Position numbers and translations under genes: made by a program. 64,000 bases of DNA from Styela clava (Eukaryota > Chordata > Ascidiacea > Stolidobranchia > Styelidae). The stretch spans positions 8,742,001-8,806,000 of the forward strand of contig NC_135250.1 in NCBI RefSeq assembly GCF_964204865.1, read 5' to 3'. The notes below the pieces were generated by a model. It was not told the DNA's origin. It worked only from the letters and a program-made list of their open reading frames with translations, and made no database searches. Of the stretch, positions 18,101-62,401 are shown one piece after another (the first letter of the stretch is position 1; every line of letters begins with the position of its first letter).

Positions 18101-21100
18101 AGCCCTACTCAAATTCAATACGTCAATATCTTCGCCAGATGCGGCAACTTTTTTCAAAATTTATCGGCGACTAAAATACTACAGACACCCGATCAAACGT
18201 GCGTCTATCTTGAACGATGGAAACGGACCGAAAAATATGTAATCTTTTGAGAGTGAAATTTAAATGTGACAGATGCTCACGTTTTGCGATATAACTTTGT
18301 ATTTCGAAAAATGGTATAATAAAATTATTAGTAAATATTATTTGATCGCAAGTAATGTTATAACATTTAACGCCTGGCTTTTGGTTTACGTGCATCATTT
18401 TTTTGGAAAACTCGTAGGTCGCGAAAAATCATTTAATTTAAAATGAAGCAAGGCACGTCTGTAAACAATTAAAGATTGTTGCATTCAGATTATCGGAATA
18501 TCACCAGTGAGTCGGCACAAATAACGCTAGCTAAATAGCAAAGAAGGAAAACGCAAAAATGGTGCAATAACGAGTCTTCGCCGTGAGGTTATATTGCCGA
18601 CTTCTTGTCCTGAATATGCCGATTGAAATTACACTGTTTGATGTTTACCGATTTACGGGTTCTTTGCGAGCAGACGCAAGTTTAATTAAACGAGTGAGAT
18701 TTTCACGCGAGAAAAACGCTCGCCTATAATTGATAAATTAGAAACCCGAAATACAAAAATTGACGCATGGCGCCGGAAAGGCGAAAACCGAATCCTGTTA
18801 TCGGATCCCGTTGGATTCGAATACTTTGGGATTCGAATCCTCCGGATTCGGTATTCTATATTGCCCATCCCTAGCCCCACCTCAAAAATAACTAGCTAAA
18901 AATAAGCTACAAATAACAGATAGTAAGGCGAAGTATGTTTTATTCAAAAACACCAAAAGTCAGGAGTTTGGAGTCACCAAAAATAAGCATCCAAAATTGG
19001 CATCGTATTCTGTATAAAATAGTCAGTTTGTTCATTTTTTATCCTTTGGTTCTGTTTGTAATACAAAACCAGGAAGTTATTTATACTGGACCTGTCTATT
19101 AGTAATGATTTTTTGAAACAAAATGTAATTTGTATTCTTATGCAAACACTGTTTCTGATTGATGCGAGAATCACAACTGCTCTTGCTCACTGTGCAAAGT
19201 TCCGTTTTCAATTACTATTGTGTTCATGATTTAAACCATTTTTACATTGTTCAAAAGTCAAATCAAACAAAATTTATAGTTGTGTAAGTGGGGTATATCT
19301 CAGTATGAAAAAAAAGATTAAACCAGATTTGCATTAACTTAACTCATAACTTGAATGCGCTTTTTAACTGAAATTTTATATATGTTAGCATTACTAACCC
19401 TGTCTGTACCATGACATTATTTTTCCGACAAACTATGGTTTTGTCCAGGTTTATCTATTGGTAATAAATAAATAGTTGGTGCTGGTACCACAATAATGTA
19501 TATCATTTCTAAAGCACCAGTATAGTATTATATTTACTTTGAAAATTTTTTTTGTCAGTTTAAACATATTTCTTTTGTACCTATAATATAAATTTAAAAT
19601 AAAAAGTCTTTAAAATGAATATTATAATGCATAATCAACACTTTTTCCTCTGTTTCAGGTACTTTTGGTGCAGCAAAAGCTCGATGAAGTAAATGTTGTA
19701 TTATCTATGTGTGGACAATTAATAGACGGAATTAAGAATGCCACACCGATGCAAGTTGAATCACATAAAGTTTATTTTCTCACATTGCAAGTTGCTCATT
19801 TGCTTTCTGGAGGACAGGTAAAACCCATAAAAATGGTTTATAATGACCTAGTGCAGTGGTTCTCGAACTTTTATGATACACATCCATCTTTCAAAGACTC
19901 TCGATACTTTGTGCCCCCTAGTCTTCAATTTTTGTTTTGTTTTCAACTGGTCTTCTTCAGTTATTTCATTTGCCATGGTTAGCTATAAAAAGCCACTGAA
20001 TGAATGTAAAACAACAACGCTCAAACAATTAAAATGAATCACAGTTTAATTACTTTGTATTATTAATGTCATCATAGCATATGGTATTTGTTGAAGACTT
20101 TTCCTCGTAGATCTCATAGAACTGCCCTGTGGCCCATAGCGGTGCCTCTTGCGACCTTGTGGTTTGACTGTTGACCCTAGCTAACTATTAATGTGGGTTT
20201 GAAGTCCATGTCACCACCCCGAGGAGAAATAAATTGGATAGTCAATGTCGAATTGCAAAGATCCCAATCCTTCCAAAAATAGTAGCTCTTTATATAGTTG
20301 GTGAGTGGCCTTTTGTATGAAGCATTATCCACAGTGAAAGTTGAAGATTTGAAATATCTGTATAAGTTTGTGTAATAATTTTTGTTAAATATTTTCCTTT
20401 TGCAGGTAAAAAGTGTAAAATCAAGTCTAAAGCAATTACAGCAGAGTATACAAGAAATAACAGCTTTACCTTCATCATCATGCAGTCTTGTGCTTCAGGA
20501 TAACCCAGGTATTTTTATAGGGTGTTTTCCAGCTCAGAACTCAGAGAAAATCAAATTTTGATAGCGAAAACTCTGGGCAAATGTAAGCATTCTTTGATCG
20601 ATCGTAAAGAACGCTTGGGAAACTAGATACTTTCTGAGTTTTGTAGAAAATATTTTCTCGATGGGCCAAATAACCAACTTCCGACATCAAGCCAGGCCAC
20701 ACCTAAAAATCTTAGCAGGAAAGGCAGGAGAAGCGGCTAGCCTAGCTTAGCCTTACAGTGATAAGTGCACCGGGCAAGGGCCATACTGAATGGCTTGCCG
20801 GGGCGAGTATGGTTCACGAGCCACTCGTTACGCATCCCTGATTTAGAAAATTCTAAATCTGATTGTATAAAATGATGATACCTTTTTAAACTATTTCAGG
20901 TCATCTGAAAGAACTTCTCGAGGTTGAAGATATGATGAAAATATTAACAAGCACAGATGCCTTTTCCTGGTTACCAAGAGATCACATGTACGTATCATGA
21001 ATCGTTCCTGCTTTACTACAAAACAATTTTGTTTGTTTGTATCTTGTAATAGTCCAAACAAATTTGGTTAGCCTATTAACAGATTACATTTACAGACATA

Positions 21101-30393: not shown

Positions 30394-31275
30394 TCAAAAT
30401 CGATATCCGTAATATTCTACGTATCTCATTTGCTGTGATTCCTGAATAGATTTCAGTAAATCTTGAGTGCGTTTTGCACGTCTTGCCTCTGTTATTGTCT
30501 GTTTTCGTGCCCTTTCTGCATCTTCTCTTTCCTTCAGAATTGCTTTTGACTTACTTTTAACCCAAGCATGGAAAGCTCGGTTACAGTCTTTACGATCACG
30601 CAAGTAAAACCCTTCATCCTGCTCAATTTGTAGTTGTTGCGTGTGGAGTCGTTCTTTCCGTAGTTGTTTTTGTTTAGTATGCAACCATGATTTGTATGCT
30701 TTTACTGCTTCCTGTTTTTGCTGAGCAAGTGATTCAGCATCACCACTACTTCTCCTTGATTTTTGTTTCTTCATTTCTTCGTTCTTATTTTCAAGCCAAG
30801 CTTTCCATGCTAATTCTGCTGTTTTCCGAGCTTCCTCTTCTTCAAGTCGTACTTGTTCTTCTTCCTCCCTTTGTTTTTCTTCCTTCGCTTGTTGCTGTTT
30901 TCGCATCATCTTTTTCATTTCTGGAGACATGGCATACGGACTCTTTATTGACTGATAATCAATTGTGCTTGTTTTATTTCTTGTTGGTTTGCTTGATTTC
31001 ACTGGAGCTGAATGAGGTGTTGCTTTTTTGGACTTTGATTTTGCTTCTTTGGATTGTGGTGGAGGTGGTGTTTTGCTTCTTTTACCAGCTTCTGCAATTT
31101 TAAGCTTCTTTTTCGCCTTTTTGTCCTTTGGTTTTCCATCTACAACTGAAGGCATCAATGCTTTAAGCTTTGAGGCACTCACCAATTCAAATTTGCCACC
31201 GCGTTCAACCAGAATTTTTTCATCCTTGTGGATTTCCTGGCCATTAATTGTAATAGTTTCTTTCTCAGAGGCCAT
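30394..31275 (-). CDS. Lys/Glu-rich coiled-coil protein, CCDC181/CCDC34-like
   Basis: Intronless frame of 293 residues starting MASEKETITINGQEI in a good context (AAAATGGCC). The N terminus has a short ordered-looking segment (ILVERGGKFELVSASKLK), then a Lys/Pro/Ser-rich linker (about 50-105). From about 120 on it is charged coiled coil with three regularly spaced aromatic repeats: AWKAWLENKNEE, AYKSWLHTKQKQ and AFHAWVKSKSKA. It ends YYGYRF. The spaced 'W-L-x-x-K' repeats are typical of the ciliary/flagellar CCDC34 and CCDC181 proteins; I cannot decide between them without a search, so no symbol is given. In those families the proteins bind microtubules or act in the sperm flagellum, but that role here is inference. 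Confidence 0.75.
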   Translation of the reverse strand: MASEKETITINGQEIHKDEKILVERGGKFELVSASKLKALMPSVVDGKPKDKKAKKKLKIAEAGKRSKTPPPPQSKEAKSKSKKATPHSAPVKSSKPTRNKTSTIDYQSIKSPYAMSPEMKKMMRKQQQAKEEKQREEEEQVRLEEEEARKTAELAWKAWLENKNEEMKKQKSRRSSGDAESLAQQKQEAVKAYKSWLHTKQKQLRKERLHTQQLQIEQDEGFYLRDRKDCNRAFHAWVKSKSKAILKEREDAERARKQTITEARRAKRTQDLLKSIQESQQMRYVEYYGYRF

Positions 31276-34200
31276 TTTATTTTGGCACCGAGCCTCGATT
31301 GTAGCACAATATGCAAACTACATGGACATAATATATATGTAATACCCCTGGTAAAATTATTGAGTAATTGAGTAATAATTAAATTTTCTCAATAAAATTA
31401 AACAGAATTCAGTAAAAATTTCAGGCTCGTGTGAATTAAAAAAAAAAGATGTCACAAGAATTTGGCTTTAAGAAACCAACATGATATTTTTATAAATTCT
31501 ACAACAACGCTATGAAGAAATGCTTACACTTATGAAGCATATTCTAGAATGAAATTACCTGGTCTGATTAGGATTGTAAGCATTTTTATTTATCAAAAAA
31601 ATGGTATTGGTTGATACAAATAATAACAAGTATTTGATAAATGGTTCAACACTAAACAAAATGCCTGATTAAATGACAATTTAAATATTTGTGATGTCCA
31701 AAGGTAAACAAGGTCGAGCTTAAAAATGATAATAAGATCGTTTTATGCTACCTTTTATGAAACATTCAAAGATGCAGGTTTCTATTAGTCAGAATATTGC
31801 TGAAAACTTGCAAAAATGCCCCGAGACATGAGAGTGTTATGTAAAATATCTTATCAATATATTCGGATATCAGAAATCGAAAAAAACTTACTTCAAATGA
31901 CCGCTAAATTAAGTATATAACAAATATTGACATTTGATCATCCTTGACGGACTAAGTCACCGCAATTTACGAATATCTCACCTAATTCTGTAATTCAGCA
32001 ACTTCTGTTTGTGCAGTAGTTCTGTAATGTCAATTTTAAACCATTCCAACCTACTTGTTTTGTGTTTACCACAGTTGAAATTTAGCCCAACCCTATTATT
32101 AAATAAAAATGTTTAGGGATATACACACTATGTTACTGTATCAACAGATCAAAGAACAAAACGCCAAACCTCGATTTACATGCCTCATTTCCATTCATCT
32201 CCAACATTGCGCGTCACAGCGTGGTCATGGTAACGTACCGTGGTACTGTATTGTACACTTTGACCCCCATAAAATGGCTGACTGATTTTATTGTTTAAGT
32301 TGGTTAAAATTTCGTATTATCTCTGTAGGCAAGTAGGGCTTATGAGATGATTTGATTACTTGGCAAACTGCTATCTACATTGGCTGTAAGGTAGTCCGAT
32401 GAGAACGGGCTTTTGAGTTAATGTATTTTCGCAACAGTGCACCTTCAAGGCATGTGATTTAAAACTAAATACTTCCTAATTAACATATTTCAGCGACAAC
32501 GACCCCGAGGTAAATATGGGAAATTCCGAGAGAATGCAGTTGAGAAAACGAACATTTCACCGCTAAGCTAGAAAATAATGTTCAGTTCACGAATGCAGAA
32601 ACTTTTGGCTGGTCGCATTACGATATTGAAGAAACCCATCAGTCTAGGGCTGGGAATGGTTAACCGGTTAAATGAGTTTAGATGGTTAACGGTTACGATT
32701 TATTTTAACCGTTAACTGACATCTCAGGTACAAATCATCTTTATAATGTACAATTTCTTCAGAAATGATTACGTAATCGCAAATTAATCTCCCGTAGCGT
32801 TTAATTTAAAAGAATATCACTAACTGTATTTGTAACACCCAATACAATTGAAGTACCAAGATTGCTGATTATGAAAATTTGACAATGATGAATTGATAAT
32901 CAGTTTTCGAATAAGACATATTCCTCGGTAAAAATATACAGTTTTCTTGCAAAATCGTCTATTATATGTGCGCAGTTGCTGCTGTTTATCCTTATGATAT
33001 CTCAAAGAAGAATTTGCACATTGAGCACTAAAATTTGTCACATAAATAACATTGAATAACGGAAACTGTTTCACTAAAATACTGCCGTATGTCCGAAGCA
33101 CGCTGCATATCTCTTGCACCACAGGGATCACGAAACGGTCTAGATTCGTCAATATTTTTGGTAGATACCAGGATAAGATCACTCGAACTTAGTTTGTAAC
33201 CATTGTGACGTAATAAGCTAAAAATTTCTACGTCAAACTGCGGTTAACCGGTTAATGTTCCCCGGCTAACGTGTTTTCCCTGATATTCCCAGCACCCATT
33301 CCAACGTAAAAAACTTTTCTCCACTCTTTACGTTTGTATGCTAATATTGCGGCTAAAACAAACACCAGCACGTCTGCAGATTTTTATCTTCCATAGCCGC
33401 ATGTACCCTTGGTTTATTTGAAACGGAGATATGATTTCACCGAATAAGGTCAGCCAATGTACGAGCCGTGATATTCAATGACTAGCTGTGTTGTTGACTT
33501 TCTTAAAGCAATTTCGATCAATGCTGTAAAATACAGGGAAGGGCTAGTTGAATTATTACATAACCAATAGCTGTTAGATTTGGGTTGACTCACTCTCGCG
33601 ACTCCGAGTCCAAGTGTAATTTAATTCCGAAGCAAAATCGAGCAATTCCGAAGCAATATCGTCATATGAAGACTGATTACCGGTCTGCGATATTGATTAT
33701 AACTAATTTGTTGACACCCAATATCACAGATAAAATTATCTCGATTTGTCACAAATATTATACTTGCTGCATTCCAAAGTTCATTTGTGGCCTCTTTGTT
33801 TGCGTTTATATAATTTATACAATAGGCTACAAAGAAAAAACGCAATCAACTATTGCACAGTGGTTCCTCAATCCTCTGGAATCACTGATGTTTCGTTCCA
33901 GCAAAAAAAGTTGAAAACCGCTTATTTACATCAGCATATAAAATTGACACATTCCATTAAATGATTTTGTAGATATTTGATTCCAAGCATGTAAAAATAG
34001 CCAAGTGTATATATATATATCGATTTATATTCTCTTGACGCCAAAGTTTTGTTAAACCATATTTACGGTTAAACGTCTTAGTATATATTTACGGTTACAC
34101 CAATAGTGTCAGCCATTGGGACTTGGAAGTAGGTTATGCCGCTGTTACAAACGATCCGAAATCCTAGAGAATTGAATCAGGTTTCGGTGTCATTGCCTAA

Positions 34201-34314: not shown

Positions 34315-35966
34315 TCAAATACAGTATACAGATGCGTCATTATTATGGGTGCATGAGGAATGATTACCCCAGCCAAGATTTTTACAAGACGCAATGTTAT
34401 TCTCGGTTCCATCACAACCTATCCCGGAAAGCCATATGGGTCCACTTCCTTCGCCGTGTATTGCACAGCAGTACGCGTAGGCACGATCGTATCCAAGCAT
34501 GCGACATACTACACCGGCGTCAGTATTATCCCAACCTTCGTCACAAATTGTTCCCCATGTGCCGTTGTGAAGAATTTCTACACGGCCTTCATTTGACCAA
34601 CCACTTTGAAGTCTTACTCGCGTGAAACCGTTTTGCAAATCCAAAATTTGAGATCGTAAAGAATGAAGTTGATTTGTTAGGGCGTCCAGTTCTTGGCCGT
34701 TTTCTGTTTCATTCAGTGTCATATTTGTAACATTGTAGTTGAGATTGGTGATATCTGAAACATGGCCGTTTTCTGTTTCATTCAGTGTCATATTTGTAAC
34801 ATTGTAGTTGAGATTGGTGATATCTGAAACATGTGAATTACTCATTCAGTTTTTCGGCAACATAAAACTTTCTTCGCACGTGACGGCGCTCACATTCAAA
34901 TCAACGCCATGCTACAAATTTAAAGATTAACGAACTTCTGTATAGTTTAATACTTTGTATTTTGATTCTAGTACTACGTATTTTTCCATTTTAATCACAA
35001 TATTTTTGCGTGTCCGTCCGTGTATTTGTCTAAATTGTTGTAAATCCCAGGAAAATTGATAACTCTGGATTTGATTCCTAAAGACGCCACTTTACACTGC
35101 AGAAACATTGTCTTTATACGTACTGTATTGTATTTATGTAATCCTCAACAGAACCTGAATTATCATGATACCTGCAAATCATTGTTCACCAGGTTTTGAC
35201 CATCTATTTTATGAACATATTTGAAATGCCAACTATGTCAGGTTATGTTTTACTGGTCTGATTGGCCAAGTGACAAGGTAACGCCAAAACATTTTTTTCG
35301 AATGGGCATCGAAATAGTTATAAGATAAGTTATAAATATGATAATTAATCATAATCGGTTCATACTTATGATTTCTTTCTTCAAACTTCCGACAGCCTGA
35401 AAATAACAAAAGAATTTTTCTTTGATATATGCAAAACGCGATAAAAATGCTTAAACATTTTCACGCATTTCATGGCGAAACTAATCCCGCGAAGTAGATG
35501 TTCATGGATACAACAAACAAGTCTATTTAAGCATTACACACGAGAAAATTAGTACTCGAAAAATCAAAACTGCGACTAAAATATGTACTTTAATATCACA
35601 TAGTTCTGATTCAATATCTTACCCAGGCTGACAGCACAAGAGAACAAATAGTGGATGCCACCAACAATACAATGACAATTGTTAGAGCCAAAGATCTCCA
35701 ATGTCTTTTCTTTTTTCGTGGATCTTGACATCGTGCATTTTCATATGGTTTACCTGATTAGTATAAAAAAATACAAAAAGAATTGCTTTATTCCTAGAAA
35801 TACATCAATATATATATATACAATTGAATAGTTAATATTTACCCGCAGATAACGTGTTTTCATAAACATGTCCGGCAACGTAAGGTTCTTGTCTACCTTG
35901 TCCGATGGATGAAAATCCAGTCGTAACCATACCAGCATCAACGTTTGCATAAATATTGTCTCCCAT
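34315..35966 (-). CDS. Type II membrane SRCR receptor (scavenger-receptor A-like layout)
   Basis: Four exons on minus: 35966-35843, 35753-35623, 35396-35366 and 34823-34315, all GT/AG, joined frame 795 nt, 264 residues. Residues 1-62 are a cytoplasmic tail with three Y-x-N motifs (Y6-A-N, Y35-E-N, Y45-E-N) and a basic RKKKRHWR patch. Residues 63-85 are one hydrophobic helix (LALTIVIVLLVAS...). A stalk follows with two 23-residue repeats full of N-x-S/T sequons. Residues 165-264 are an SRCR domain (VRLQSGW, GRVEI, WGTICDEGW, VVCRMLGY, SGPIWL, IGCDG, HNNDASVYC). The six group-A cysteines are present plus an extra adjacent pair (214-215). The N-in topology with a C-terminal SRCR resembles MSR1/MARCO, but no collagen region is present. 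A role in ligand binding or phagocyte-like signalling is inferred. A short upstream exon (ATG at about 36053) could replace the first few residues. Confidence 0.85.
34699..34836. repeat. Perfect 69-bp tandem duplication in the SRCR stalk
   Basis: A 69-bp unit starting gccgttttctgtttcattca occurs twice in a row with no visible difference. Each unit encodes 23 residues with three N-glycosylation sequons (NVT, NMT, NET) and, on the minus strand, a catgtttcag splice-acceptor sequence. Exact identity points to a recent event. Start and end may shift by a few bases. Confidence 0.85.
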
Positions 35967-37450: not shown

Positions 37451-40400
37451 ATGGCTGTCGCTGTAGCAGAGGCTGTGTCTTGTATTTTGCAGTGCATTGG
37501 TGTAGTTTGTCTTTGCATTGCTGGTATCGTAGAATGGGCTAAAAAGGCTTTTGCCGTTGTGACAAAAATAGTGACCTGTGGGCAAGGATGGCAAGGCTTT
37601 TTTATGAACTGCTTGACGTTTTTCAACTCCGAAGAGGACCCAGATTTTAAGGACTTCGATCTTCCAGAAGCAGAAAATCGAACAGTAACGGACATGCCTT
37701 CACTTGTTTTATTCATAACAGTTTTATTAGGTATGATGGCTGGAATGAACCGAGCTATAGCCTACGGAAAACCTGAAGTTTATTTTCAGGGAATTGACTC
37801 GTGGGGAAATATATGTGGATACGAAAATCTGCCCATTACGGGATCTGTATTTTCAGGAAGAGATATGACTAAATTTGACAAATTGCTTATTTTCGATTTT
37901 CTCAGTCGTTCGTCTGTTTTAACCTCTGGTGACGCCGTTGCGATGTCTGAAATACCGTTTACTACATCAATATGTGTTGAGCATTGTCCTCTTATTACAA
38001 GAACATTTGATTGCTGGGAATATCTTGGAATAAAATCTATATATCCAAACGTAATAAATGATTTGCTTTGTAGATCTGCAGAAAGAGAATTGAATACGGT
38101 GAGAATGAGAACACTCTCCTTCTCAGAACGTAACTCTCGGTGCGTACCGGACGTCGTTTCTGAATCCATATCAGTTGAAAAACAGAACAAGATGCTCAGC
38201 CTTTATTCTACGCATTGGGTTCATAACGTCATCGCCGATTGTGGCACTTGTGCCGCAGAACTAACCTGGATGACACTGATTGCTGCTGGATGTACCATGA
38301 TTTTTATCTGTGTCATACAAAGCGCCTCAGATACTATATGTTGGTTTAGCTTTTCTTCATTTACATTCGTGGGTTTAATATCTTCTATTTGTATGTGGTA
38401 TATGTATTCCGGTATTAGCGCTAACGACTCCGCAACGGTACTCTATTCCGCAGGAGAAAGCGACATAATGAACAGTGATTTTGCACCTGGAAATTTGACG
38501 GGGAACCAATGGAAACCTCACCACCTTCAAAGTCCAAAACAAACTATTTCCCGAAACTCTGTTCCACAAGCAGGGTATTCTATTGTTTTCCGTGACGCTT
38601 CAATTTATGTGACTTTTTTCACACTATTTCTCACTTTTATCTGTTGTCTTGTCGGCAAGCGCAACATGGATGCAGCGGCTGCTCTTTTTAGTATAGCGAT
38701 TCGAGCCATGATAAAAGTTCGATGGATCTACATCCTACCTGTTGTAACTCTATGTTCAGTCAGTTTTGCAGCAGGTCTATTTCTCTACACGGTAAATTTA
38801 CTGACTGCTGTGTTCAAAGACGATATAAGTATTGTTGAAGATACCATCTACAAATTCCCACGCGCTGTGATAGAGGAAGATCTTGTGTACACAAACTGGG
38901 TACTTCTTTTTGAGTTTTTAGCATTTGCCTGGCTTTTCAACTTCATTATGGCATGTCAAACGCTGATTGCGTGTTCTGCTATAGCAAGCTGGTATTTTAT
39001 AAAAGACAAAGAAGACCTGGACAGGCCATTAAGAATAGGAAGTTCTCGATTGCTGCGATGTCACTTGGGATCTGCCGCCGCTGGTGGTTTATTAGTCGGA
39101 TTCCTGGGATGGATGAGAGCTCCGTTCAGGTTAACTCTCTCGTAATTTGATATTCAGATATTAGCATATTATTATCAGGCATGTCGTAAACCAGAGGTCG
39201 GCAACCTACGGCCCGTGGGCTGGGTCCGGCCCGCGGAGTGATATATCCCGGCCCGCGACGCTTCGCTTAATTATAGTAACAAAATACCTGGTTTGACGAT
39301 AATATTCATTAAGTAACAGAATTTATTGAGCGACACGTGTGGACTAAATTATGTTATAATTTAACAAGTATAAAATTCACAATTACTCGTTTGATGAGCA
39401 TTTAATTATAATTAGACAAATGGCAAGAAAACGCAGAAAAGTTTATACTAAGTTTAATGACGCCGCAAATATTCAAATGAGATGCAATGCAATGAGGAAA
39501 TAAATGTATATTCTATTCGAGAGATGTATCACTGCTTGTTCTTTAATATAAAAAGTATCATTCGTTCGGTTTTCAACTTTCTGAAAATATGTGCGGCCCG
39601 CCACTGACTTACAATCCTTATTTTTGCCCGCGAGCGACAAAAGATTGCCGACCCCTGTCGTGAACAAATATAATACCCAGAATAGACGTTTTAGTCCCTG
39701 AATATATATCTTTCCACGAAATAGCAAGTATAGGTGTATGATTTCTTCAGACAATAATCTAATTAAGCATCTAATAAAGAAAAAGGAATTTTAATACACA
39801 ATAAATATATATACATACATATCTATCATCATATGTATATACCACTCTTTTTCAGTTTTCTTCAGTCACGGTTAAATCGGGCATTACTGAGTGGCGGGGA
39901 TGAGCCACAACCCATCGATGATTCACAACCTTATTCTGATTATTATGGGAAACCATATAGCGTCCAATATGATTACGAAAAGGGCAAAGACCAAACTTCG
40001 AAGAAAAGCATTTCAGGTGATAACGTTCCGGCGGCTTCCAAAGGACCAGAGGAGGAGCCATATTATTCTGACCGTGGAGAAGCTGAAGTAAATAGCAAAT
40101 ATTCCAAAAATTCCGCCAACACGAAATACTCAAAGTACTCCTCTGCAAGTCAGGTATTTGAGCTGATAAATTAGGAAACAATTGATTGTTTAAATTACTT
40201 TCACCCTTTGGGTTGTTCATTTTAGACACAGCCAAAGCCACCACAAAGTTTGGAGATTCCTGTCAAATATATACGTTTCGTCGCTCAATTATTTTCTCCT
40301 TGCTTTTATGTCCTGAACAACTTGTTGATTTACATAAGTGATATAAATTTCAGTATTGTTGCATTGAAAGGATCGTCTTTTATACAAGCTGGATTTGACG

Positions 40401-43400
40401 TCCGGGATATGCTAGTGAAAGACCCGGTACGTTTATATAGACAGAAAATACAAAATCATGTCATTATCACGAGACTAGTTAATGTACATCTGATGACGCT
40501 ATTTAACCTCATCTGACGACAATGTATGTTATCATTGTCAGATCTTAACGAGAATATATTGGTATGCTATACTGTAGATTGTAATTTGTAACTTCCAAAT
40601 TTGAGTATCATTTTATACACATATTAAGTTCACGACAATAGTAAAAATCGGTCTGAAAAAGAACCGTGAATAACATACTCTATTTGTTCACGTCTGTGAA
40701 TTGTATTCTTGTTTTTACCCAGTGCGTTTTTTTTTCTTCAGAGACTCAAAGGTCTTGGTGCTATTTCAAGTTTCTCCTTATTTCTTGGGAAGTTGTCTGT
40801 TGTAATCGTTGTTTTACCGTTTGGTTTTTTATTCCTGAGAAATAAAGAAGGAGTTTTTATTTACGGATATCCGCTCGCAATGAGTGCTGCAATATCATTT
40901 GTTGTTGCCCATATATTTCTCTCTTTATTCAATGCAGCCGTCGGGTAAGTTCTATGTGAAAAACTTTTATGCTTTTTATTGATATATATATTCAAAAGAT
41001 TTTCAAAGTTAATTTTCCCCTTTGGAATACCCTCTGTTACAGAACAATATTTGCGTGCTTGATGGAGGATCGTGCATTGAATGATGGATCGGTAGAGAAT
41101 CCATATTTTGGTGACGAAAAATTAATCATGAAATTTCACGAGATATTACACGTTGGCGACTCGGATGGTAAGTTTTCACGACGAGATGATACAAAAGTTC
41201 TCGTGATGTTATACGGAATCGAAATGGGCATTTGCAACTATTCTTTGTTTGACAATTTTAATTATACCAAATTAAATCTATCCTCCAACATGTAACATAC
41301 GACAACAGGCAGTATTTATTTTGCGAGAATTTTTCGATAATACATTATAAATACTAGATCAAATATACGGCTATTGAACTTCTACTTCTGTCGTAATGTA
41401 CACTTGTGATACTTTCTTCAATTACACTGGCAAAACTTTGTCTTTCCAGATGATACGCCTGATTTTCATTATGCATATGAGTTTCCTAGACCTGCAAATA
41501 GGAAAAAGGCTGCCAGAGATGCGCATCGGTTGGGATCTGAATTAGGTTCAAGCAAGGCTTATTCCAAGTGAGCTTTTCTATCTTATTTTTAAATTATTCC
41601 CAACTTATGCTGTGCACGAATCTATATAAGTTGTTCTTCAGCGAACTTTGAACCACTAAGGTAGGTGGGTGCATCATTTATTTACCGGAATATTATTCTG
41701 CCTTTTGGTAGCGAAGCTGTTGATAGTCAGCCAAAACCTAAAAAGAAAACTGCTAAGAAAAAGAAAGGTAACAAGAAAGCAGACATTGACAATATGCCGC
41801 CAGATCATTCATCGATGTTTTTGTTGATGCCAAAGAAAAACCAACCAGGGGACATGACTGAAAAATTGGTAAATGATTAATCATCAGATATTTTTAACCG
41901 AAATATGACGGAAATAGTACTAAAAACTTTTTTGTGCTTTACTCCACAGTCGTCGTCTGGACATACAACATCATACGAAGAAGTTGAAGAAAGAAAAGGT
42001 AGATAAGTAAATGAAGTACTATGTATTACGGCAAATGCACAGTTTCAGTAATCTGTTGGGTAAATCAAATTCAGCTTATTCTGTACGATGTGGCATTTCA
42101 ATTCGATCTCAAGAGTGCCGCAGTTGTGGACAAGTTGGCGCGCGGATAGTAATAAGCACCAATTATATTTAGTTTGTTGTCATGTTGAACTTTTTTAGTC
42201 ACCTAAAGGAATGCAAGTATTTGTTAGGTTTTTGGATGTAGTATCTTATTTATTGACAGTTCGGAAAGCAAAGAAGGAAAAGCGACATACTACTCAAACC
42301 AAGTTACAACATGAGAAAAGACAGACAAAGGATGAAAATTCTGTTTATTCAGATAGTTATTCAACCAGATCTCACAGGCACAGGTAATTTGGTAGAAACA
42401 GTGACACGAAATTATGAGACTATTGAAAAAATCTTTTGATGATCGACTGGAGTTTGATCTCGTGCGGAAGCCTTTCCAATTTTTTTTATAGAAATATGAT
42501 TATTATAGAAACATCTCCGTGGAATACAACCAATTTTATTTGTATTTATGTGAGAACTGGGTAGTGTTCAATAATATAACAATAAACGTTAGGGGCAGAA
42601 TAATTTACTTTGTTCATAAATGCTCCAACTTTCGGGATGAATTCACCATGTATTGAGCACTTAACATGCTAATACGCCAATGACTGTGAATAAGTTTTTC
42701 AAACTTTTTAGCGCCATAATATATACATTTTAATATAATTTTTACTATTATTCACAAAGGCATAGTAAAAGGCATCATTATGCAGATGATCACAGACATC
42801 GAGAAAGTCGATCATATTCAGGATCGGGAGGAAGTGGAGGCCTATTGGGAAACTTGTTTGGCGCAGTTGCAAATAGAAGAAATCAAGATAATGAGGTTCG
42901 TATTTTAGTTTAGATAAATTCTAGCCTTTAGTATAAAAACAAGGCATGCTATTATTTGTTATATTTTGTACCTGACCGCATAACTTTCGATTCCAGTTAT
43001 TTAAGATTGTTCTATTTCTGGAGATTGATTTGTTCTACAAAACTGATAACATATAAAATCAAGTCTTAAAATAAAAAGACTTGTTGAGTCAATTCAAAGT
43101 CGAGTACGAACTCAATTTGGAAGGTCTGACATCACGACTAACAATATACTGCTGGATTGGTTAACAGGGGGATAAGTTGGCCATGTATACAATATTGATT
43201 AACACTCAAATGATGTTATGAATATTTTCATACGGAATATCCTAAAAGTTCAGAAAAGTCCAAAGTAGGGAGAATTGTATTATTCGTCTGTAATAGGATA
43301 GTGATGGTGGATTTGGTGGCTTTGATGACTTTGGAGGTGACGATGATGATGACGGAGGTGGCGACGATGATGACGGAGGAGATGATATGGGAGGAGAAGA

Positions 43401-46400
43401 AAATAAAAAAGTATGCTTTTCAAATAACTCGAGCTTTCGTTTTTAATACTATAGCGTAATTCAGTGCTCGTTTTTTTGTTAGTTAAGACTTGGATGTTTT
43501 AATAGAAAAAAGACAAAAAGAAGGATAAAGAAAAAAAAGAAAAAGATAAGAAGAAGGATAAGAAAAAGGAAAAGAAAGAAAAAGATAAAAAGAGTAAGAA
43601 GGATAAAAAGGAAAAGAATAAAAAAGAAAAGGATACCAAGGGAAAGGATAAAAAAGAAAAAGATAAAAAGGGGAATGATAAAAATAAAAAAGAAAGTAAG
43701 GAGAAAGACAAAAAAGGAAAGGGGAAGGACAAGGCTGAGAAGACCAAGGACAAGAAAGATAAGGACAAGACTAAAACGAAAGACAAAAATAAACAAAAAA
43801 CTGACAAGAAGAAAAATAAGAAAGACAAACCGAAAAAAGACAAGCCCGAGAAGAAACAAAAGACAGGTAAATAGATGATGAAATAACTTGAATTCACACA
43901 AGACTATTTATCTATTTTCGTTAATGATTTTAGGCTAGTGGATCCTTTAACGTGAATCACGAAGACCTATATGCTACATAAGTGTCATTGCACACTAACA
44001 AATTTTTTTTGTAAAGTTTTGCTCTTGAATTCATCTTCATGTAAATATACGAGAAATGGATTCAAGATAGCTGAATACTCTCTATATTTTAGGCAAGATT
44101 CAGCCTGCCGCCAAGTTTATTTCTGATATGATATTTAAAGTTTTTAAGTATTGAAGATAAAAATTCATTTTTCAGATAAAAGTGGGAAGAAGACAAAGGA
44201 TGGGAAATCAGACAAAATAAAGGACAAACCATCCAAAAAAGCCAAACCAACGAAAAAAGACAAGGGCAAAACTCCGAAGGCAAAACCCAAAAAAGCTCCA
44301 AAATCTGCCAAGCCAAAAGGGAAAGCGGGTAAAATGAAAAAACCTAAATTAGGAAAAGGCAAGAAGCCAAAACTTGGAAAGGGTAAAAAACCGAAATTGG
44401 GGAAAATGAAAAAACCCAAAATGAAGAAACCCAAACTTGGCAAAATGAAGAAACCTAAAATGAAAAAACCCAAACTCGGCAAAATGAAAAAGCCTAAAAT
44501 GGGCAAAATGAAAGGATTTAAGAAGCCTAAAATGGGAAAAATGAAGGGTTTCAAGAAGCCGAAAATGGGCAAAATGAAAGGTTTCAAAAAGCCTAAAATG
44601 GGAAAAATGAAAGGATTCAAAAAGCCTAAAATGGGCAAGATGAAGGGGTTTAAAAAACCTAAAATGGGGAAAATGAGAGGTATGAAAAAACGAAGAATGG
44701 GTAAAATGAAAGGCTTCAAAAAACCAAAGATGAGAAAAATGAAAGGCCCAAAAATGAAAGGCGGTGGTAAAATGAGGGGAGGCATGAAAGGAGGCGGTAG
44801 GAAGATGGGTGGGGGTATGAGAGGAGGAGGTGGTGGTAAAATGGGTGGTGGAGGAGGAATGGGTAAAATGAAAGGAGGAAAGATGGGGAAAATGGCAAAA
44901 GTTGGAAAAGGACTTGGAATGGCCGGAGCAGTTATCGGTGGCGCAGAGGGAGCAGCAAATATTGGAAATGCGATGTTACGCATCACTGGCAAGAAAGAAG
45001 CTTTCAATGATAAAGTTAACGATGTGACATTTGGAACCAGAAAACGAGCGAAGGCAGCTACAGCGATGCAGACAATCATGGGAGGCGGCGGAGGTGAGTT
45101 TTTCGATTGTTTGTCTTGCTATTGAGCACATGGGCTCTATGGCCTAGCATGGTCTTAACAATGTTGGTGTTGCATGATATGATAGATAGTCGGGGTTTAA
45201 CTCACATGCACCCCACATTAACCAAGATTCCGGTATTCCCATAAATAGTAACCCCACACTTATTAGTGACTGCTAGTAAAGAGCATACTTTGAAGTAGGG
45301 GCATAAAACACTTCAGAGAGATCTGGAGATTGCACAAATGCGCTAACTATATCTTCACTCGAGAACCCCGAATCAACCAAATACGTACAGGTATTAACTA
45401 GAAATCATCATATTCATACCCACTTTCCCTTATTACAATGAAAACCATGCAATGACAATTTATTGAGATTGCAAATTACCTAGTCTGCGAGTCCCAAAGC
45501 GAAACCCGAACATACTTAATCACTTTTGTAATTCATCAGGGTTCAATTCGTGGACCTGCATTGTTGAGGATATCATCAATAAGTTTCTGAATAATCTTAT
45601 TTGTCATTGACTTATTTGTGCTGACAACGCAACTCTATGCTCGTCTCAATGCCAAGTCCGATAAATAGCACCGTTTAAAACTAGATCAATTTTTAAAAGC
45701 GGACTCGATCTTGGTCTCCGATTGCGGTTGATTTGGAATGAATATATGGCGTCTCGAAATGTGTCAATAAATGTTTGATCATTTTTCTAAGCTCGTCGAT
45801 ATTTGTCCCGTGAACGGATACTTCATATGTACAATTTAATAATACGTCCTTGTCATATTTGTTGGCTGTTAGCTCTCATCCGTTTACCGCCAGTCTACCC
45901 ACCCGACAAAATAAAACTATTATGATAAAATTTTTCCCACCAATAACTTCTGCTATGTGGAATTTATTGCCCATAGTTGTTTCCCGGTTGTTTTGGCTGT
46001 TTCAAGTCTCGCTTCAATCGGTGCTTTCTAACGCTTAATGTACGGTAATAATCCTGTAGTAGCTTTTGCACTTCATTGGCCGCCTGTAACTTCGGTAAAG
46101 GGTCAGTACTTTTCGAGTGAGTGCCGGTGAATCTGCTTTGATTTGAAAAAAAAACGCGTTACAAACACGCAATCGAAGCCGATTTCTGTATTGCAACATA
46201 GTTATGATCAGTGGTGGGATTCAGCCGGTTCGCACCGGTTCTATAGAATCGTCTCACAGAATTTTATGAGATCAGCAAACCGGTTAGCATTACTGGTTAC
46301 TGTCAATGTTCTGTTTGTGATAGAACCGGCTGAAAAAATTAACTTTTGTGAAGGAACCGGCTGACAAAAAATTGAATTCCACCACTGGTTATGATCGTAT

Positions 46401-46623
46401 TTCCTCCTGCGTTGTCTATGCCGCCAATGAATTACTTTACTGCAATATTGTATTCGAAGGTTTGCGTCAAGCAATGCAAGATGTAGATGCACAATTTGAT
46501 GAAATGGAGGCGGAACAGAAACGTGAGAGAAAGCGACAACGAAAACAAGAGAAACGTGAAAAGGCGAATATGCAAAATCTCTTGCAACAGAGACTGATGG
46601 CACGAAAAAGACAACGACCCTGA
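37451..46623 (+). CDS. SLC44/CTL-like transporter with giant Lys/Gly-rich repeat tail
   Basis: Exons: 37451-39129, 39856-40153, 40226-40426, 40742-40944, 41043-41167, 41450-41567, 41712-41868, 41950-41998, 42260-42383, 42760-42895, 43297-43410, 43506-43866, 44176-45093, 46460-46623. All are GT/AG with matching phase; 4647 nt, 1548 residues. The first about 870 residues are a choline transporter-like protein: RTVTDMPSLVLF before the first family helix, IDSWGNICGYEN (CTL1-like), ICVEHCP in the large loop, a run of helices, LRCHLGSAAAGG, FLGKLSVVIVVLP and ACLMEDRALNDGS. Family members are about 650-720 residues with both ends cytosolic. An extra hydrophobic N-terminal segment of about 76 residues and a Tyr-rich insert (exon 2) are unusual. 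After exon 6 the frame continues through a basic linker, a Ser/His/Arg segment, an Asp/Gly stretch, a 120-residue exon with about 68 Lys, a KPK/GKMK repeat exon, and a charged helical end. Substrate unknown; choline is only the family default. Confidence 0.85.
39192..39657. mobile_element. hAT MITE (cagaggtcggcaacct) in CTL intron 1
   Basis: Starts cagaggtcggcaacctacgg and ends aaaagattgccgacccctg, inverted ends of the widespread 'CAGGGGTCGGCAA' hAT group, with GC-rich ggcccgcg segments at both sides. The flanking octamers tcgtaaac and tcgtgaac match at 7 of 8. Length 466 bp, no coding capacity. Confidence 0.85.
43297..45093 (+). other. Region encoding the low-complexity charged tail of the CTL-like protein
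   Basis: Three exons: 43297-43410 encodes an acidic Asp/Gly block (DDFGGDDDDDGGGDDDD), 43506-43866 encodes Lys-Asp/Lys-Glu alternation, and 44176-45093 encodes KPKLGKGK and MGKMKGFKKPK repeats, then Gly-Met-Lys and a small-residue segment GMAGAVIGGAEGAANIG. The sharp acidic-then-basic order and strong strand asymmetry (A/G-rich plus strand) are obvious. Long open frames on the opposite strand here are by-products of that composition. Confidence 0.8.
44499..44729 (+). repeat. 33-bp coding tandem repeat, seven units (MGKMKGFKKPK)
   Basis: Units start at 44499, 44532, 44565, 44598, 44631, 44664 and 44697, exact 33-bp spacing. The first five encode the identical 11 residues although Gly, Lys, Phe and Pro codons differ in the third base. 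Unit six is diverged (MGKMRGMKKRR); unit seven returns to the consensus. The preceding exon sequence has shorter KPKLGKGK and KPKMKKPKLGKMK relatives. Confidence 0.9.
46209..46387. mobile_element. 179-bp hAT MITE with exact target duplication, last CTL intron
   Basis: Starts cagtggtgggattcagccgg and ends gaattccaccactg; the octamer gttatgat flanks it exactly (46201-46208 and 46388-46395). The interior repeats aaccggctga words. It sits 72 bp before the final CTL exon and must be spliced out for the model given. Confidence 0.9.
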
Positions 46624-46999
46624 AGTTAATATTTACATTCCTATTATGTTTCCGGTTGTTTATGTTTACATGATTTGAAAGAACTATAAATCTTGTTTAG
46701 AAAAAACCAAAATTAAACGTTTAATACGCATTTCTTGCAAAGTTCGGAGAGCACATACTTGGGCTTTAATACGGAAAATTGAAGTGTTGTGAAGTCGTCA
46801 TTTAGTGATTTACTTCGGTGGGATGATTTTCGACATAATGTCACTCCTAGTATTATATTCATGACATGATATGTTTTCATTTTCAATCCTTGTCGATATT
46901 CAACACCGATTAACATAGAGAAGCGTCCTTAGAATTAACAGCATTCAGTTTTTTGTACCAATACATAGATTGGTGAACGACTGATAGCAATGCTTGCTA

Positions 47000-47897: not shown

Positions 47898-50854
47898 ATG
47901 CAAAATTATGACTGCAAAGTGGACCGAACTGTGTCTTACGTTAATCAAGGCACGATTTTAACCGGGGATACAAGACAGAATGGTAACAATTCGGACAAAT
48001 CTTCAACGGAAATATTATTGGAGAAAATAAGATCATATGGAGATAAAACTGCACTGGTAAGATGAGATCAGCTATAGCTAAACGTAATTCTTAACATATT
48101 ATTTTATTTGGCGGAAATGGCTTCTCAGCCGTTTTCTTGTAAGCATGGACTCGGAGTAATTATAATCTCGTCTCATATTTACTACATTTGTCCCGAATTA
48201 TGTTATGTTGATTTTGACGGCCAATATGGAAGAGCCACATGTAGGTAGCTCGTTCATAAAGTTGCCTTAGCTTTTTCTCACGCTAATTTCTTGTTGAATA
48301 TTTGTAATATAGATAAAATATTTACAAGCATCATTATTCTTTATGTGGGCAGGTAGACGACTCTAATGGCGGAAACTCTTTGACGTACAGTCAATTTTAC
48401 AATCAAATCAGAAATTGTGCAGGGTATTTGTACGAACAAGGATTGAGAAAAAGAGACGTTGTCGCGCTATGTTCGTCAAACTGCCTGGAATTTCCAGTTG
48501 TAATGCTGGGAATCATTGCTTGTGGTGCTAGAGTCTCTTTGTGCACCCCGACATTCACAAAAGGTATGTCATATTTTAGGAAAATTTATATCTATGTTGA
48601 CATGGGATGGTGAAAACCAGATTCTGAAATGTAAATAACCATAATAACACGTATCACCATCTAAAAGTCGTGGGGATATCAGTCCAAATATTGCTTTCTT
48701 TAATCATTTTATATGGGCACGATTCCATGCGCGAAAAACGTTTACCTGATCAATTGGTAATTAAATAGTATACCATGATGTGTTCTGAGTTATGACAGAA
48801 AATATGCTTCAAGTAAATAGTTGTACAAAGCATGCAGAGTGGAATTCACGACTAAACGGCATGTGGTTTTCTTTAATCGTCAGTTCACAGAAAATACCAA
48901 TTGTATAAAATTTTCGGCTTCGGTATATTGCAACGTGAGCATGAATGAAGAGTTGAACCAAACTATATGTTGGCCTCGCAGGTTTGAGATTTCGATTCAA
49001 GCCCATCGCCAAACCAGAATGTTTCGTCTATTCGGATTTGAGGCATGTAAAGTTTGATAAAAAAAAGAATACATAAACCTTTATCAGTAAAACATGTTAT
49101 CGAAATTATTGTTCTTCAGAAAAAATGTTTGAACACTTCCAACATTGTGGACCGACTATGGTCATTTCAACAGAAGAGGCCTCTGAAACAGTGGATCAGG
49201 TTGTGCAGAAAATCAGAATGGTGAAGGTATCAAAAAAAAATACGACGTAATCTGAAAAATATATTTAAATAAATACGATATGATCTATTCTTCGATATAA
49301 ATTTCTTATCCGTTTACCTCTGGCAGAGGCGTGCCAAAGCGAGTGTCGGGCGAGTTTCTGATAATGAGAATAATAAATTAAAGGTCAAGTAAGAGTGAAA
49401 TATTTATATTATTATTATTTTTTTCAAACTAAGCAACAAACGCACCCCTATAACGTTCTGCCGGGGCGACTTTCCCTTTGGCCCTCTTTAGACAAGTCCC
49501 TTCCTTCCAGTGCGTCTCTGTTTCACATTCTCCCTGGTTTTTGACCTCGTGCGTTATAATATTTACAAGCAAACATCTACTTATTCTAAATTTGCAGAAA
49601 GTGATTATCATCGGAGAAAGTGAGAAATATATAACAACCTCGTATTTTTTTCAATCGACAAGTGGTGAGTAGTTTTCTCGTGTTTCATTTCAATGATTGG
49701 TGTTGGAAAAACTTCATAGATAAATCAGTGACTTGATAATGTATGTTACATTGCTACAATGTAACTTTTCAGTCTTACTATTATTTCTTCAGATTTTCCG
49801 AGAGTTGACATTAACCCTAACTTTGACGTAGCAATTATATCCTATGCAAACGATGACAACGAAACACTGAAAGACAATTCTACAACACATACAAGCATTA
49901 CTAGAAGAATTGAGTGTATTGCACAAACGTAAGTGAATAGAATAGCGTTTCACTTTTTATCTCCAAGAAAGCAAAAACAAACGCGCCTGTCGAGTATATA
50001 ACAAAAATGATAAGATGCTCCAGAAGTATGCGCACCAAGATGTCGCACAGCCTGAATCCTAACCGGTACACACATACTACGTTCAGGTTGTGCGCCATCT
50101 TGGTGTGCATACTTCTGGAGGTCCAAGGATAAAATGTAATCTTTCCCCCTTCAACCGCGCGTTTCAACACGATTTTTTCGCAATATTTTCAGATTATGGT
50201 CACCAACCAAAAACGATTCACAGTGTAATTATTTTGACATACCAATGATTCAGAAGTTAGGCGTGGAGACGATGCTTGCGTCACTTTTTGCAGGGTTTAA
50301 ATTAGTCTTCAGAAAGAGATGTGACATCAAAAGCATGCTGAAGGCCGTAAAAACCCATCAGGTAAGACCTATATTTACTAGTAATGAAACGCCCAAATAA
50401 AATTTGAAGTTGCGACTTCATATCGTGCGTGTCAATCCACTTTATAATGCTGAAATAACGACATGAATCGTTAAAATACCCAAGAATTATTAGTATTCAG
50501 AATTGGAAGTGATTATAGTTAAATTTATGAGGTGTGTTCAAACTGTACTCGTTACTACAATGCGACGGTATTGTAGCTAGGTAAAGATTTTACAAATCAC
50601 ATCTAAGAAGCTTTCAACAACGAAAGTATTGATAGCGCTCGCTTGCTTTTATTAAAACTAAATTGAAAACTATATTGCAATTCAGGTTACAACAGTTTTC
50701 ACACGTGATACGACTGCGGTTGGATTGATGCAGGATGACATTAAATTTGACTGTGGAAAGTCATCTATGAGAATAATAAATTTTTCGGGGCCAACTATGC
50801 AGTCCGAATTGATTGAGAAAGTTGAAAGAAAGTATCAAGTTGACGTTAATCAGG
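47898..50854 (+). CDS. Degenerate/truncated AMP-dependent ligase (4CL/acyl-CoA synthetase type)
   Basis: Exons: 47898-48056, 48353-48563, 49120-49226, 49598-49664, 49793-49928, 50193-50361, 50686-50854, all GT/AG and in one frame. The N-terminal part matches the ANL superfamily: SLTYSQFYNQIRNCAGYL, VALCSSNCLEFPVVMLGIIA, GARVSLCTPTFT, VKKVIIIGES, then LASLFAGFKLVFRKRCD and KTHQVTTVF. The ATP-binding loop expected as S-S-G-T-T-G-x-P-K after FDVAIISY is absent; that stretch reads ANDDNETLKDNSTTH. The frame stops being recognisable where the YG-x-TE motif should follow; a weak extra exon at 51008-51054 would add 15 residues and a stop (354 residues in all, versus about 550 for the family). No adenylation activity is expected. 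Likely a pseudoenzyme or decaying copy; start codon chosen as the first ATG in frame. Confidence 0.7.
50020..50119. mobile_element. Short palindromic element
   Basis: The two halves are inverted copies of about 40 bp: ctccagaagtatgcgcacca at the left and tggtgtgcatacttctggag at the right, joined by a short loop. A related single arm is at 12518-12540 (cttcagaagtatgtgcacca). It lies in an intron of the ligase-like gene. Confidence 0.7.
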
Positions 50855-58718: not shown

Positions 58719-60024
58719 CTGAACAAATGGTAAAAGACAAAAATATTCAAATCGAACTGATATCCATAGAATAAAATCAATAAAAAATCGATTTGTAGAA
58801 GAATTTGTTACTCGCAGTCAGCTTCCACCTCTCAATATTATGAATTGTTTATGATGTGTAAAATCATTACATTGTGGTTAGGTTGTGTTCGTTAAGAACG
58901 AAACGCAGTTCACGACGATGGAAAAATAATCACACTTTTTTTTTTCAAGTATATTGTTGTTGTTATTACAAGATTCATCATCTTTGTGCAGCCATCGCTG
59001 CCAATACTATTTAATGTATGTCATTTGATTCATAAAGTTCTTCGTCCGCAAAGATTAATTTTTTTTGAGTGAAGTTATCTAACCATGTGGCATGCTTACC
59101 AATAAATATTCTATTAAATAGCAGCCTATTACTTTATCAGATATTGACGATTTGTCATTAACTTCACTGCCTGGCCTGTTGTGTCTGTTCATAATGCCTG
59201 TAAATTAGACTCACGAACTCGAAGTGACGTTGCAAAACCTTGAACCTATTTTAGTGGTCTCATGTTGTTTTGATCTAGTGCTGTCATTTTGTTTGTTATG
59301 CCTATGATCAGCGTTGGAACATTTTAAATATTCTTCCTTAACTTTTCTTGATTCTCTTCTCTTTAGCCATCTCGAATACCGTTTTTCCTATTCAGCACCT
59401 GCGTCTGCAACAGATTTGCAGCACGCAAGTCCTAAATCCAGCACCGGTAAAATCAGATATGAACTGGAACCCCAGCCGCTGCTGGTCTCGGTTACTAGTA
59501 GTAACTGAATATAAAATATTGTGATGTCATTAAGGTAATCAATAATGATTTCTTAGTTACAAAAGGTCCGATATCAAAAATAGAAGTTGATTTGGAATGA
59601 GCGGTGAAAGTCCCTTCAAGTGGGATGGAATTTACGCAAACGATTAGTTTGAAACCACGCCGATTCGTTGACATTCAATCCGCAATAACAGCATGTATCC
59701 GAAAACATCTTCTCTCACACGCTGACACGTCTTCCTCATAAGGATTGCACCTCATCTTAGACTAGAGGAAATTTCAAACAAACCGTCGCAAGAGCCGCGG
59801 GTTGGCCACTCTTGATCTAGCGCTGCCCTCGTTGGGTCAGTACCATTCTTCGATTGAATTACGTTTCCATCTGTTTTTTCTTTGCAACCAACGCCACCTT
59901 TGCGTCTTGGACATTTTTTTCGTTTTACACGCGTTCCCCCAATCCCCATATTTAATTTGGCTGAGAGGAATAGGATATACGTCAACGTTATTCAAAAACA
60001 CAATTAGTAGAAAATTATGAATAA

Positions 60025-60336
60025 ATGGGTTATAATAAATCTAGTATGGACGGTAGAAATGAGTATCGAATAAACCCACCACGACAGAATCCGGGTTCCT
60101 CTTCGCTTCTAGAATTTCTTCTAGGAAAGTCATTTTCATTTGCAGTTTCTCAGTCTATTAAAATATATTCACGAATTATTTTTATTAAAGATGGTATCAC
60201 AGTGAATTGGAATAAAACCGACTTACCATGTTGGAATTTTGAAACCATTTTCCTTGATTTCCTCTATTTTTGGCTTTTTAAAAGGCGATTTTGCTTTTTA
60301 TCATCATCGCTCGCGTCTGCAACCGAATTTGAGTAA
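60025..60336 (+). other. Reiterated open frame, copy 1 (coding status unknown)
   Basis: Open for 103 codons (MGYNKSSMDGRNEYRINPPR...). Related frames occur at 62084-62401 and 63252-63449. On the opposite strand the same DNA contains MTFLEEILEAKRNPDS followed by a possible donor, and a gtaagt donor after ccaacatg, so which strand is functional is not settled. No domain recognised. Confidence 0.35.
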
Positions 60337-61398: not shown

Positions 61399-62083
61399 CT
61401 ATCAAATAAATTAATATTTTCTAATAATTCCCTTAAAAATATCTACATATATATTTATTGTAAAAGTCGCGAACCAAAATGATTATGACAGAAATTTACA
61501 AGTCATTTATTGGTATACAGGCTACTTAGTGGGACTTCTGCCATTTTTTAGATTAAACAATGCTCTTTAAATTTGATTTCATGTTTTTGGGGTAGAAAAC
61601 AAAGATTCGCAAACGAATGTTGAGCCAGAACATTGACAATATCCTAATCGCAGCTCGTTTGACCTTGGAGTACTTTTCCATCGGCATGCTTTACCATAGT
61701 TCACAGCCTAATGGCCCGTTCTCTTGAAGCGCATTTCAGTTGGTCTTCCTCATAAGATTGCAGCCTCATCTTAGACTAGAGGAAATTTCAAACAAACCCT
61801 CGCAAGAGCCGCCGGTTGGCCACTCTTGATCTAGCGCTTCCCTCGTTTAGTCAGTACCTTTCTTCGATTGAATTACCTTTCCATCTGTTTTTTTTCTTCT
61901 CAACCAACGCCACCTTTGCGTCTTGGACATTTTTTTCTTTTTATACGCGTTCCCCCAATCCCTATTCTCGTCGTTTGTGCATTTTCAGGACGCCACCCCC
62001 ATATTTAAATTGGCTGAGAGGAATAGGATAGGCTATACGCCAAAGATATTGCAAAAACACAATTAGTAGAAAATTATGAATAC

Positions 62084-62401
62084 ATGGGTTATAATAAATC
62101 TAGTATGAATGGTAGAAATGAGTATCGAATTAACCCACCACGACAGAATCCAGGTTCCTCTTCGCTTCTAGAATTTCGTCTAGGAAACTCATTTTCATTT
62201 GCCGTTTCTCAATCTATTAAAATATATTCACGAATTATTTTTATCAAAGATGGTATCACAGTGAATTGGAATAAAACCGACTTACCATGTTGGACTTTTG
62301 AAACCATTTTTCTTGATTTCCTCTATTTTTGGCTTTTTAAAAGCCGATTTTGCTTTTTATCCTCATCGCTCGCGTCTGCAACCCGTTATCTACAGATGTG
62401 A
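62084..62401 (+). other. Reiterated open frame, copy 2 (coding status unknown)
   Basis: 105 codons, closely similar to 60025-60336. Several of the differences fall in the third base of this frame (for example CGAATA/CGAATT, CCG/CCA, GCA/GCC, CAG/CAA, ATT/ATC), others change residues (L to R, K to N). No domain recognised. Confidence 0.35.

Follow-up and report, generated by a model that had tools for sequence, protein, structure and literature searches.

Among described proteins, human CTL1 of the SLC44 family (7wwb, 9qu3) offers the main comparison for the protein presented here. In a structural study, CTL1 comprises 10 helices, with M1 and M2 flanking an extracellular domain, and Tyr495 is the sole pocket residue common to CTL1 and yeast PNS1 (PMC13160678). 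The same study questions transport by CTL proteins, suggests a non-transport role and treats the activity of the family as disputed, and for this reason CTL function is under debate again (PMC13160678). In the present study, we analyzed a 64,000-nucleotide stretch of the Styela clava genome (C1:8742001-8806000, hereafter the window), where a gene on the forward strand appears to join a CTL core to a long, basic C-terminal tail.

Divergence of the CTL Core

Residues 387-804 of the predicted product match PF04515 over profile positions 2-325 of 326 (E=1.1e-41, 143.6 bits vs a cut-off of 26.9), and the 657-residue chain of human CTL1 in the PDB (7wwb) matches at E=3.9e-31 in three aligned blocks (human 20-96, 266-467, and 483-627), which bears out the SLC44/CTL core recognized in a first-pass annotation of this DNA. 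Besides the Pfam domain and the aligned blocks, the two proteins have Tyr495, Lys544, and His584 (human numbering) in common. Unlike human CTL1, the window protein has one more hydrophobic segment, N-terminal to the canonical M1, holds 116 residues rather than 15 in the loop between the last two blocks, and continues for 721 residues past the aligned end, compared with 30. Moreover, eight of the nine CTL1 pocket residues are changed, with Tyr495 the one kept and human Gln404 replaced by Thr504 here, and the near-pocket Asp595 is lost.

The hydropathy profile displays 12 peak regions, some of them adjoining, and the extra N-terminal segment could change the topology. By the published CTL1 topology together with our own helix count, the loop with the 116-residue insert would face the cytosol. 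A cytosolic C terminus, as the first-pass annotation had it, is likewise supported by homology to the published CTL1 topology (PMC13160678), the side being set by our own helix count.

Judged from these alignments, the product is an SLC44/CTL protein, though a diverged one, over residues 1-827. Its core shares 30 and 36% identity with human CTL1 in the significant pieces of block 483-627, whereas the same block is matched at 51-67% by the locus at C1:9.26, 42-47% on C3, 33-67% at C5:6.55, and 49% at C5:6.87; the duplicated CTL pair on C9 gives no match to it at E<=10. The window gene would be a fast-diverging SLC44/CTL paralogue for which choline transport is not to be assumed, and its sequence allows no substrate to be inferred.

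Gene Model

The 14 exons (Table 1) form one frame of 1548 residues with a terminal TGA; splice phases agree at all 13 junctions, and every one of the 13 introns is bounded by GT..AG. The start ATG at 37451 is the first in-frame ATG past an in-frame stop at 37436, and a possible poly(A) signal, ATTAAA, lies at 46712..46717 (+), 89 bases beyond the final stop. Introns 6-12 measure 81-401 bases, compared with 72-315 for core introns 2-5. The earlier claim of an unbroken frame and phase from the core into eight more exons (7-14; 674 residues) therefore stands, while its "double the family norm" holds as about 2.4 times human CTL1 (1548 vs 657), one human length serving as the norm in place of a family survey.

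The support is uneven along the model. For the short exons 7-10 it consists chiefly of open frame and phase, and weak splice sites occur at exon 10 (acceptor ACAAAG, donor GTTCGT) and at the exon 14 acceptor (CGAAG). Confidence is lowest for exon 14, because its acceptor is weak and, were exon 13 read through unspliced, the frame would stop at 45123, just ten codons on.

Table 1. Exons and repeat array of the window gene (positions within the window).
Feature	Position	Strand	Content and basis
Exon 1	37451..39129	+	Residues 1-559: extra N-terminal hydrophobic segment (~1-37), canonical M1, extracellular domain, helices to about M8 (helix numbers inferred from alignment); PF04515 match from residue 387, 7wwb alignment, hydropathy peaks
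Exon 2	39856..40153	+	Bulk of the ~116-residue Tyr/Ser/Lys/Asp-rich insert (residues 567-682), loop after M8; CTL1 467-483 gap
Exon 3	40226..40426	+	Region of amphipathic helix 3, CTL core; carries Tyr695 = CTL1 Tyr495
Exon 4	40742..40944	+	Final CTL-core membrane helices (about M9, M10); CTL1 alignment, hydropathy
Exon 5	41043..41167	+	CTL core end, LNDGS motif; human CTL1 alignment ends at residue 827
Exon 6	41450..41567	+	Linker; TGA 41569 stops the frame if intron 6 is retained
Exon 7	41712..41868	+	First Lys-rich patch
Exon 8	41950..41998	+	Gene model
Exon 9	42260..42383	+	Basic, YSDSYSTRSHRH stretch at its end
Exon 10	42760..42895	+	His/Arg/Ser-rich, then GGSGGLLGNLFGAV; splice sites weak
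Exon 11	43297..43410	+	Acidic Gly/Asp block, residues 1031-1066, net -17
Exon 12	43506..43866	+	KKD/KKE polyampholyte, residues 1067-1188 (two from exon 11), net +40
Exon 13	44176..45093	+	306 residues, net +106: Lys/Pro/Ala stretch (H1-tail-like composition), KKPKMGKMKGF repeats, Gly/Met/Lys block, short non-repeat segment
33-base units x8, in register	44487..44750	+	Consensus KKPKMGKMKGF; pN/pS 0.09
Exon 14	46460..46623	+	Arg/Lys/Gln/Glu-rich C terminus and stop

Coding Nature of the Tail

The 721 residues past the human-aligned end contain 206 Lys, 37 Arg, 60 Asp, and 34 Glu, giving a net charge of +149, in agreement with the Lys-rich basic tail of the first-pass annotation, and a calculated pI of 10.3; exons 7-14 alone (residues 875-1548) reach +150. 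Beyond the acid block and the polyampholyte, residues 1189-1242 contribute +19 and residues 1243-1383 +70. A YSD motif is shared by the core insert and the tail (residues 586, 629, and 973), a weak sign that the two belong together.

The tail is real coding sequence, since its first five repeat copies differ synonymously only and exon 13 is open beyond chance. These five 11-residue repeats are identical as protein, and their DNA varies in 7 columns, each of them the third position of a codon (p=7.7e-5 under random placement of variable columns). Their pairwise differences comprise 40 synonymous and 0 non-synonymous changes, vs 0 and 40, respectively, in the two shifted frames. Over all eight units the counts are 123 and 61 (pS=0.86, pN=0.078), a pattern that points to selection on the repeats for protein sequence. 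As for the open frames, none of 20,000 sequences simulated with an order-1 Markov model of matched composition was stop-free like exon 13, while 65 of 20,000 were so for exon 12, which is also open in one further frame and carries its pyrimidines mostly at third codon positions (4/9/32). A codon-usage score, for which exon 1 supplied part of the training set, ranks the proposed frame highest in 8 of the 14 exons (1-4, 6, 8, 11, and 13), in some narrowly, ties in exon 10, and places it lower in exons 5, 7, 9, 12, and 14; since it fails in five exons, core exon 5 among them, it decides nothing.

Exons 7-14 (674 residues) match 0 Pfam families at E<=1. The weaker matches, all judged to be chance, comprise five Pfam families for the C-terminal 123 residues when E<=10 is allowed (E 0.11 to 2, all below their own cut-offs), a best NCBIfam value of 0.054, and three PDB sequences at E<=1, of which a Sup35 amyloid chain scores best at 0.015. 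No linker-histone globular domain was found in the tail by these Pfam and PDB searches at E<=1, no histone being among the PDB matches.

Related Sequences in the Genome

The genome searches covered the 376.6 Mb assembly of 379 contigs. A protein search with the repeat exon returned four matches, i.e., the exon itself, two other-frame readings of it, and a weak match on C2 interrupted by 8 stops, and the four matches to the linker exons all lay at the window locus. A DNA search with 41400-44400 returned nine matches, its own locus plus eight confined to query 2099-2430, a range that is in essence exon 12; other low-complexity DNA of the genome resembles this low-complexity stretch at 66-73%. 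The tail is therefore single-copy in the searches made, and no haplotype or paralogue copy of it was found, by protein or DNA, for comparison. Seven of these eight DNA matches were translated as loci: two (L028 and L030) represent a single collagen-like frame with KDKDKN repeats, and the remaining five are of low complexity, with Lys-rich frames in one of them (L029). The open L028 frame (1327-3333 of C19:5188837-5192169; 669 residues) begins with a hydrophobic segment and continues as a long KDKDKN run, followed by collagen-like Gly-X-Y repeats.

The CTL family is represented by 20 exon matches, grouped into seven loci including the window gene. At the six other loci, 10 kb stretches were surveyed for frames with a minimum of 60 or 90 residues, with 25 kb more downstream for two; in this survey, which could miss short exons, no long repeat tail was seen at any of them. 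Among the seven loci the window gene alone showed such a tail, but Lys-rich ends of short length are present on further CTL genes of this genome, and the tail is therefore less isolated than the first-pass annotation supposed. The sister CTL gene at C5:6.86 Mb (L035 reverse 8276-8431; end at 6859724 downward) has a CTL core with a KKx-type C terminus containing 12 Lys in 20 residues (GKKNKKPKDEKKKTKKEKKA), its last exon ending EKPYFMSKSLMKVLGKKNKKPKDEKKKTKKEKKA and a stop. This end differs from the window tail in being 20 residues long, in one exon, and without repeats; its near relative, the CTL gene at C5:6.55 Mb, ends LLGKKNKKPKVEE (GKKNKKPKVEE). Given the sister gene, a KKx-type Lys-rich C terminus is native to the CTL family of this genome, and the 20-residue end may represent the starting point of the giant tail.

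A scan of nine stretches for gene-strand frames with at least 30% Lys+Arg across 40 residues, in which short exons could be missed, gave nine frames for the window gene as control, among them exons 7, 9, 12, 13, and 14. No such frame appeared in four of the nine stretches (L009, L011, L037, and L014). L035 gave three, two being the last exon of the C5:6.86 gene in two readings; one in L013 and two in L036 are apparently unrelated; and of two in L010 one falls within a CTL tail. On C3 (L012, 5226-5597), a basic 123-residue frame lies about 600 bases past the last CTL frame. The C9 pair (1.7 and 4.8 Mb) also has a long C terminus, 243 residues from an NGDERPYY motif in L009; unlike that of the window gene, it is weakly basic (37 K+R, 28 D+E), with no repeats seen, and includes in L010 one 40-residue stretch of 33% K+R. 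These two genes (L009 and L010, at 1.71 and 4.80 Mb) are divergent CTL genes that arose by duplication and lie about 3.1 Mb apart, with aligned pieces 90-99% identical that cover about 8.5 of 10 kb.

One Gene or Two

A fusion of core and tail, isoforms included, can be proposed with good confidence on the basis of the continuous frame, the phases, and the intron sizes. The first-pass annotation had named a separate tail gene as the main alternative, and we regard this as the less likely reading. It would comprise two transcription units. The first would encode a CTL of about 875 residues that lacks the tail and ends at TGA 41569; the second, for a Lys-rich protein begun at an ATG in exon 7 or exon 11, might be a downstream cistron resolved by trans-splicing, a process known in tunicates. 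In-frame ATGs able to start such a protein exist at 41794, 41815, 41827, 41854, and 43387, and the TGA follows exon 6 immediately, the frame stopping after one codon if intron 6 is kept; a GTRA donor in the phase of this intron always gives an immediate stop on retention. However, a 144-base phase-matched GT..AG intron connects exons 6 and 7, no AATAAA or ATTAAA occurs from 41569 to 42581 (within the gene they occur at, e.g., 42581, 43070, and 43402), the small introns 6-12 would leave scant room for a promoter, and the sister CTL gene has a Lys-rich end of its own. Two units are accordingly rather improbable; the short phase-matched introns, the lack of a hexamer in that interval, the hexamer past the final stop, and the Lys-rich sister C terminus favor one gene.

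It is likewise not very probable that both forms are made, with retention of intron 6 yielding a CTL of normal length and full splicing a tailed form, the tail being a regulated isoform. The immediate stop on retention fits this scheme, and the tail-less product would keep the entire human-aligned core, but intron 6 has ordinary GT..AG sites.

Possible Function and Origin of the Tail

From the single-gene reading we infer one mRNA for both halves and a cytosolic, disordered tail, together with the origin and the binding partners suggested below. We give a little better than an even chance to the proposal that a CTL paralogue here serves as membrane anchor for a cytosolic polycation of ~720 residues that arose by Lys-rich repeat expansion. 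The cytosolic C terminus, perhaps short and Lys-rich at first, as in the sister gene, would have been enlarged under protein-sequence selection into an ordered series, i.e., linker, His/Arg/Ser-rich patch, Asp/Gly acid block, KKD/KKE polyampholyte, H1-like K/P/A stretch, KKPKMGKMKGF repeats, and basic C-terminal stretch. The CTL core would fix this tail to the membrane, the tail might bind negative partners (acidic lipid, cytoskeleton or perinuclear sheath, nucleic acid) through multivalent charge, and the acid block may screen charge or self-associate. Since the tail is nearly as long as the core, its location and partners could expose a scaffold or tether role of the CTL fold, and the sister and window genes would form a before-and-after pair for tail growth.

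Alternatively, the fusion may be real and the tail the outcome of near-neutral, low-complexity growth from a short end rich in Lys, with no specific role. Such a history would suit the AG-rich simple-repeat DNA with its many tandem arrays, the 66-73% matches of the exon 12 stretch elsewhere in the genome, and the 20-residue end of the sister gene; nevertheless, the synonymous-only divergence of the repeat copies and the stop-free exon 13 speak against it, and we consider it unlikely.

The lamin B receptor crosses the membrane several times and binds chromatin through a basic end; it differs from the window protein in its unrelated core and in bearing the basic part on the opposite terminus. 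The KKD repeats of cylicins resemble exon 12. Residues ~1189-1242 are like histone H1 in K/P/A composition, and in composition only. Cylicins, of the sperm calyx, have positively charged Lys-rich repeats and thus resemble the tail in composition only; unlike the window protein, they are described as cytoskeletal proteins (PMC10684152). In the titles and abstract openings of the open-access literature consulted, we found no description of a Lys-rich or polybasic C-terminal tail on an SLC44/CTL protein, and the consulted portions of that literature yielded neither a link of ascidian sperm to choline transporter-like proteins nor a cylicin described with "KKD repeats", and none of the listed records on SLC44 or choline transporter-like proteins named a tunicate. 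That the CTL core is embedded in either the nuclear envelope or the sperm membrane while the H1-like and KKD/KKE parts pack DNA or sheath, in the manner of the lamin B receptor or a cylicin, would imply a non-transport job for an SLC44 member and seems a distinctly small chance.

Other Features

Around the CTL gene, the window holds a Lys-rich 307-residue open frame at 30397-31317 (-) with a sub-threshold CCDC34 match, an SRCR domain frame at 34318-34845 (-) with two HVSDITNLNYNVTNMTLNETENG copies ahead of it, and, roughly 1.7 kb further downstream, an AMP-binding frame of the acyl-CoA synthetase type at 48317-48610 (+), the distance being counted from the CTL gene. A search of the assembly for mitochondrial COX1 gave no match. 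Two pairs of segments, 390-903 with 18023-18428 and 59766-60333 with 61780-62398, have translated frames that are near-identical by eye and are probably dispersed repeats. A CesA-GH6 fusion is a mark of tunicates; on C9, a GH6 match (1.5e-6) is accompanied by a CesA-like frame with TED and QRSRW motifs that begins 2.7 kb upstream on the same strand.
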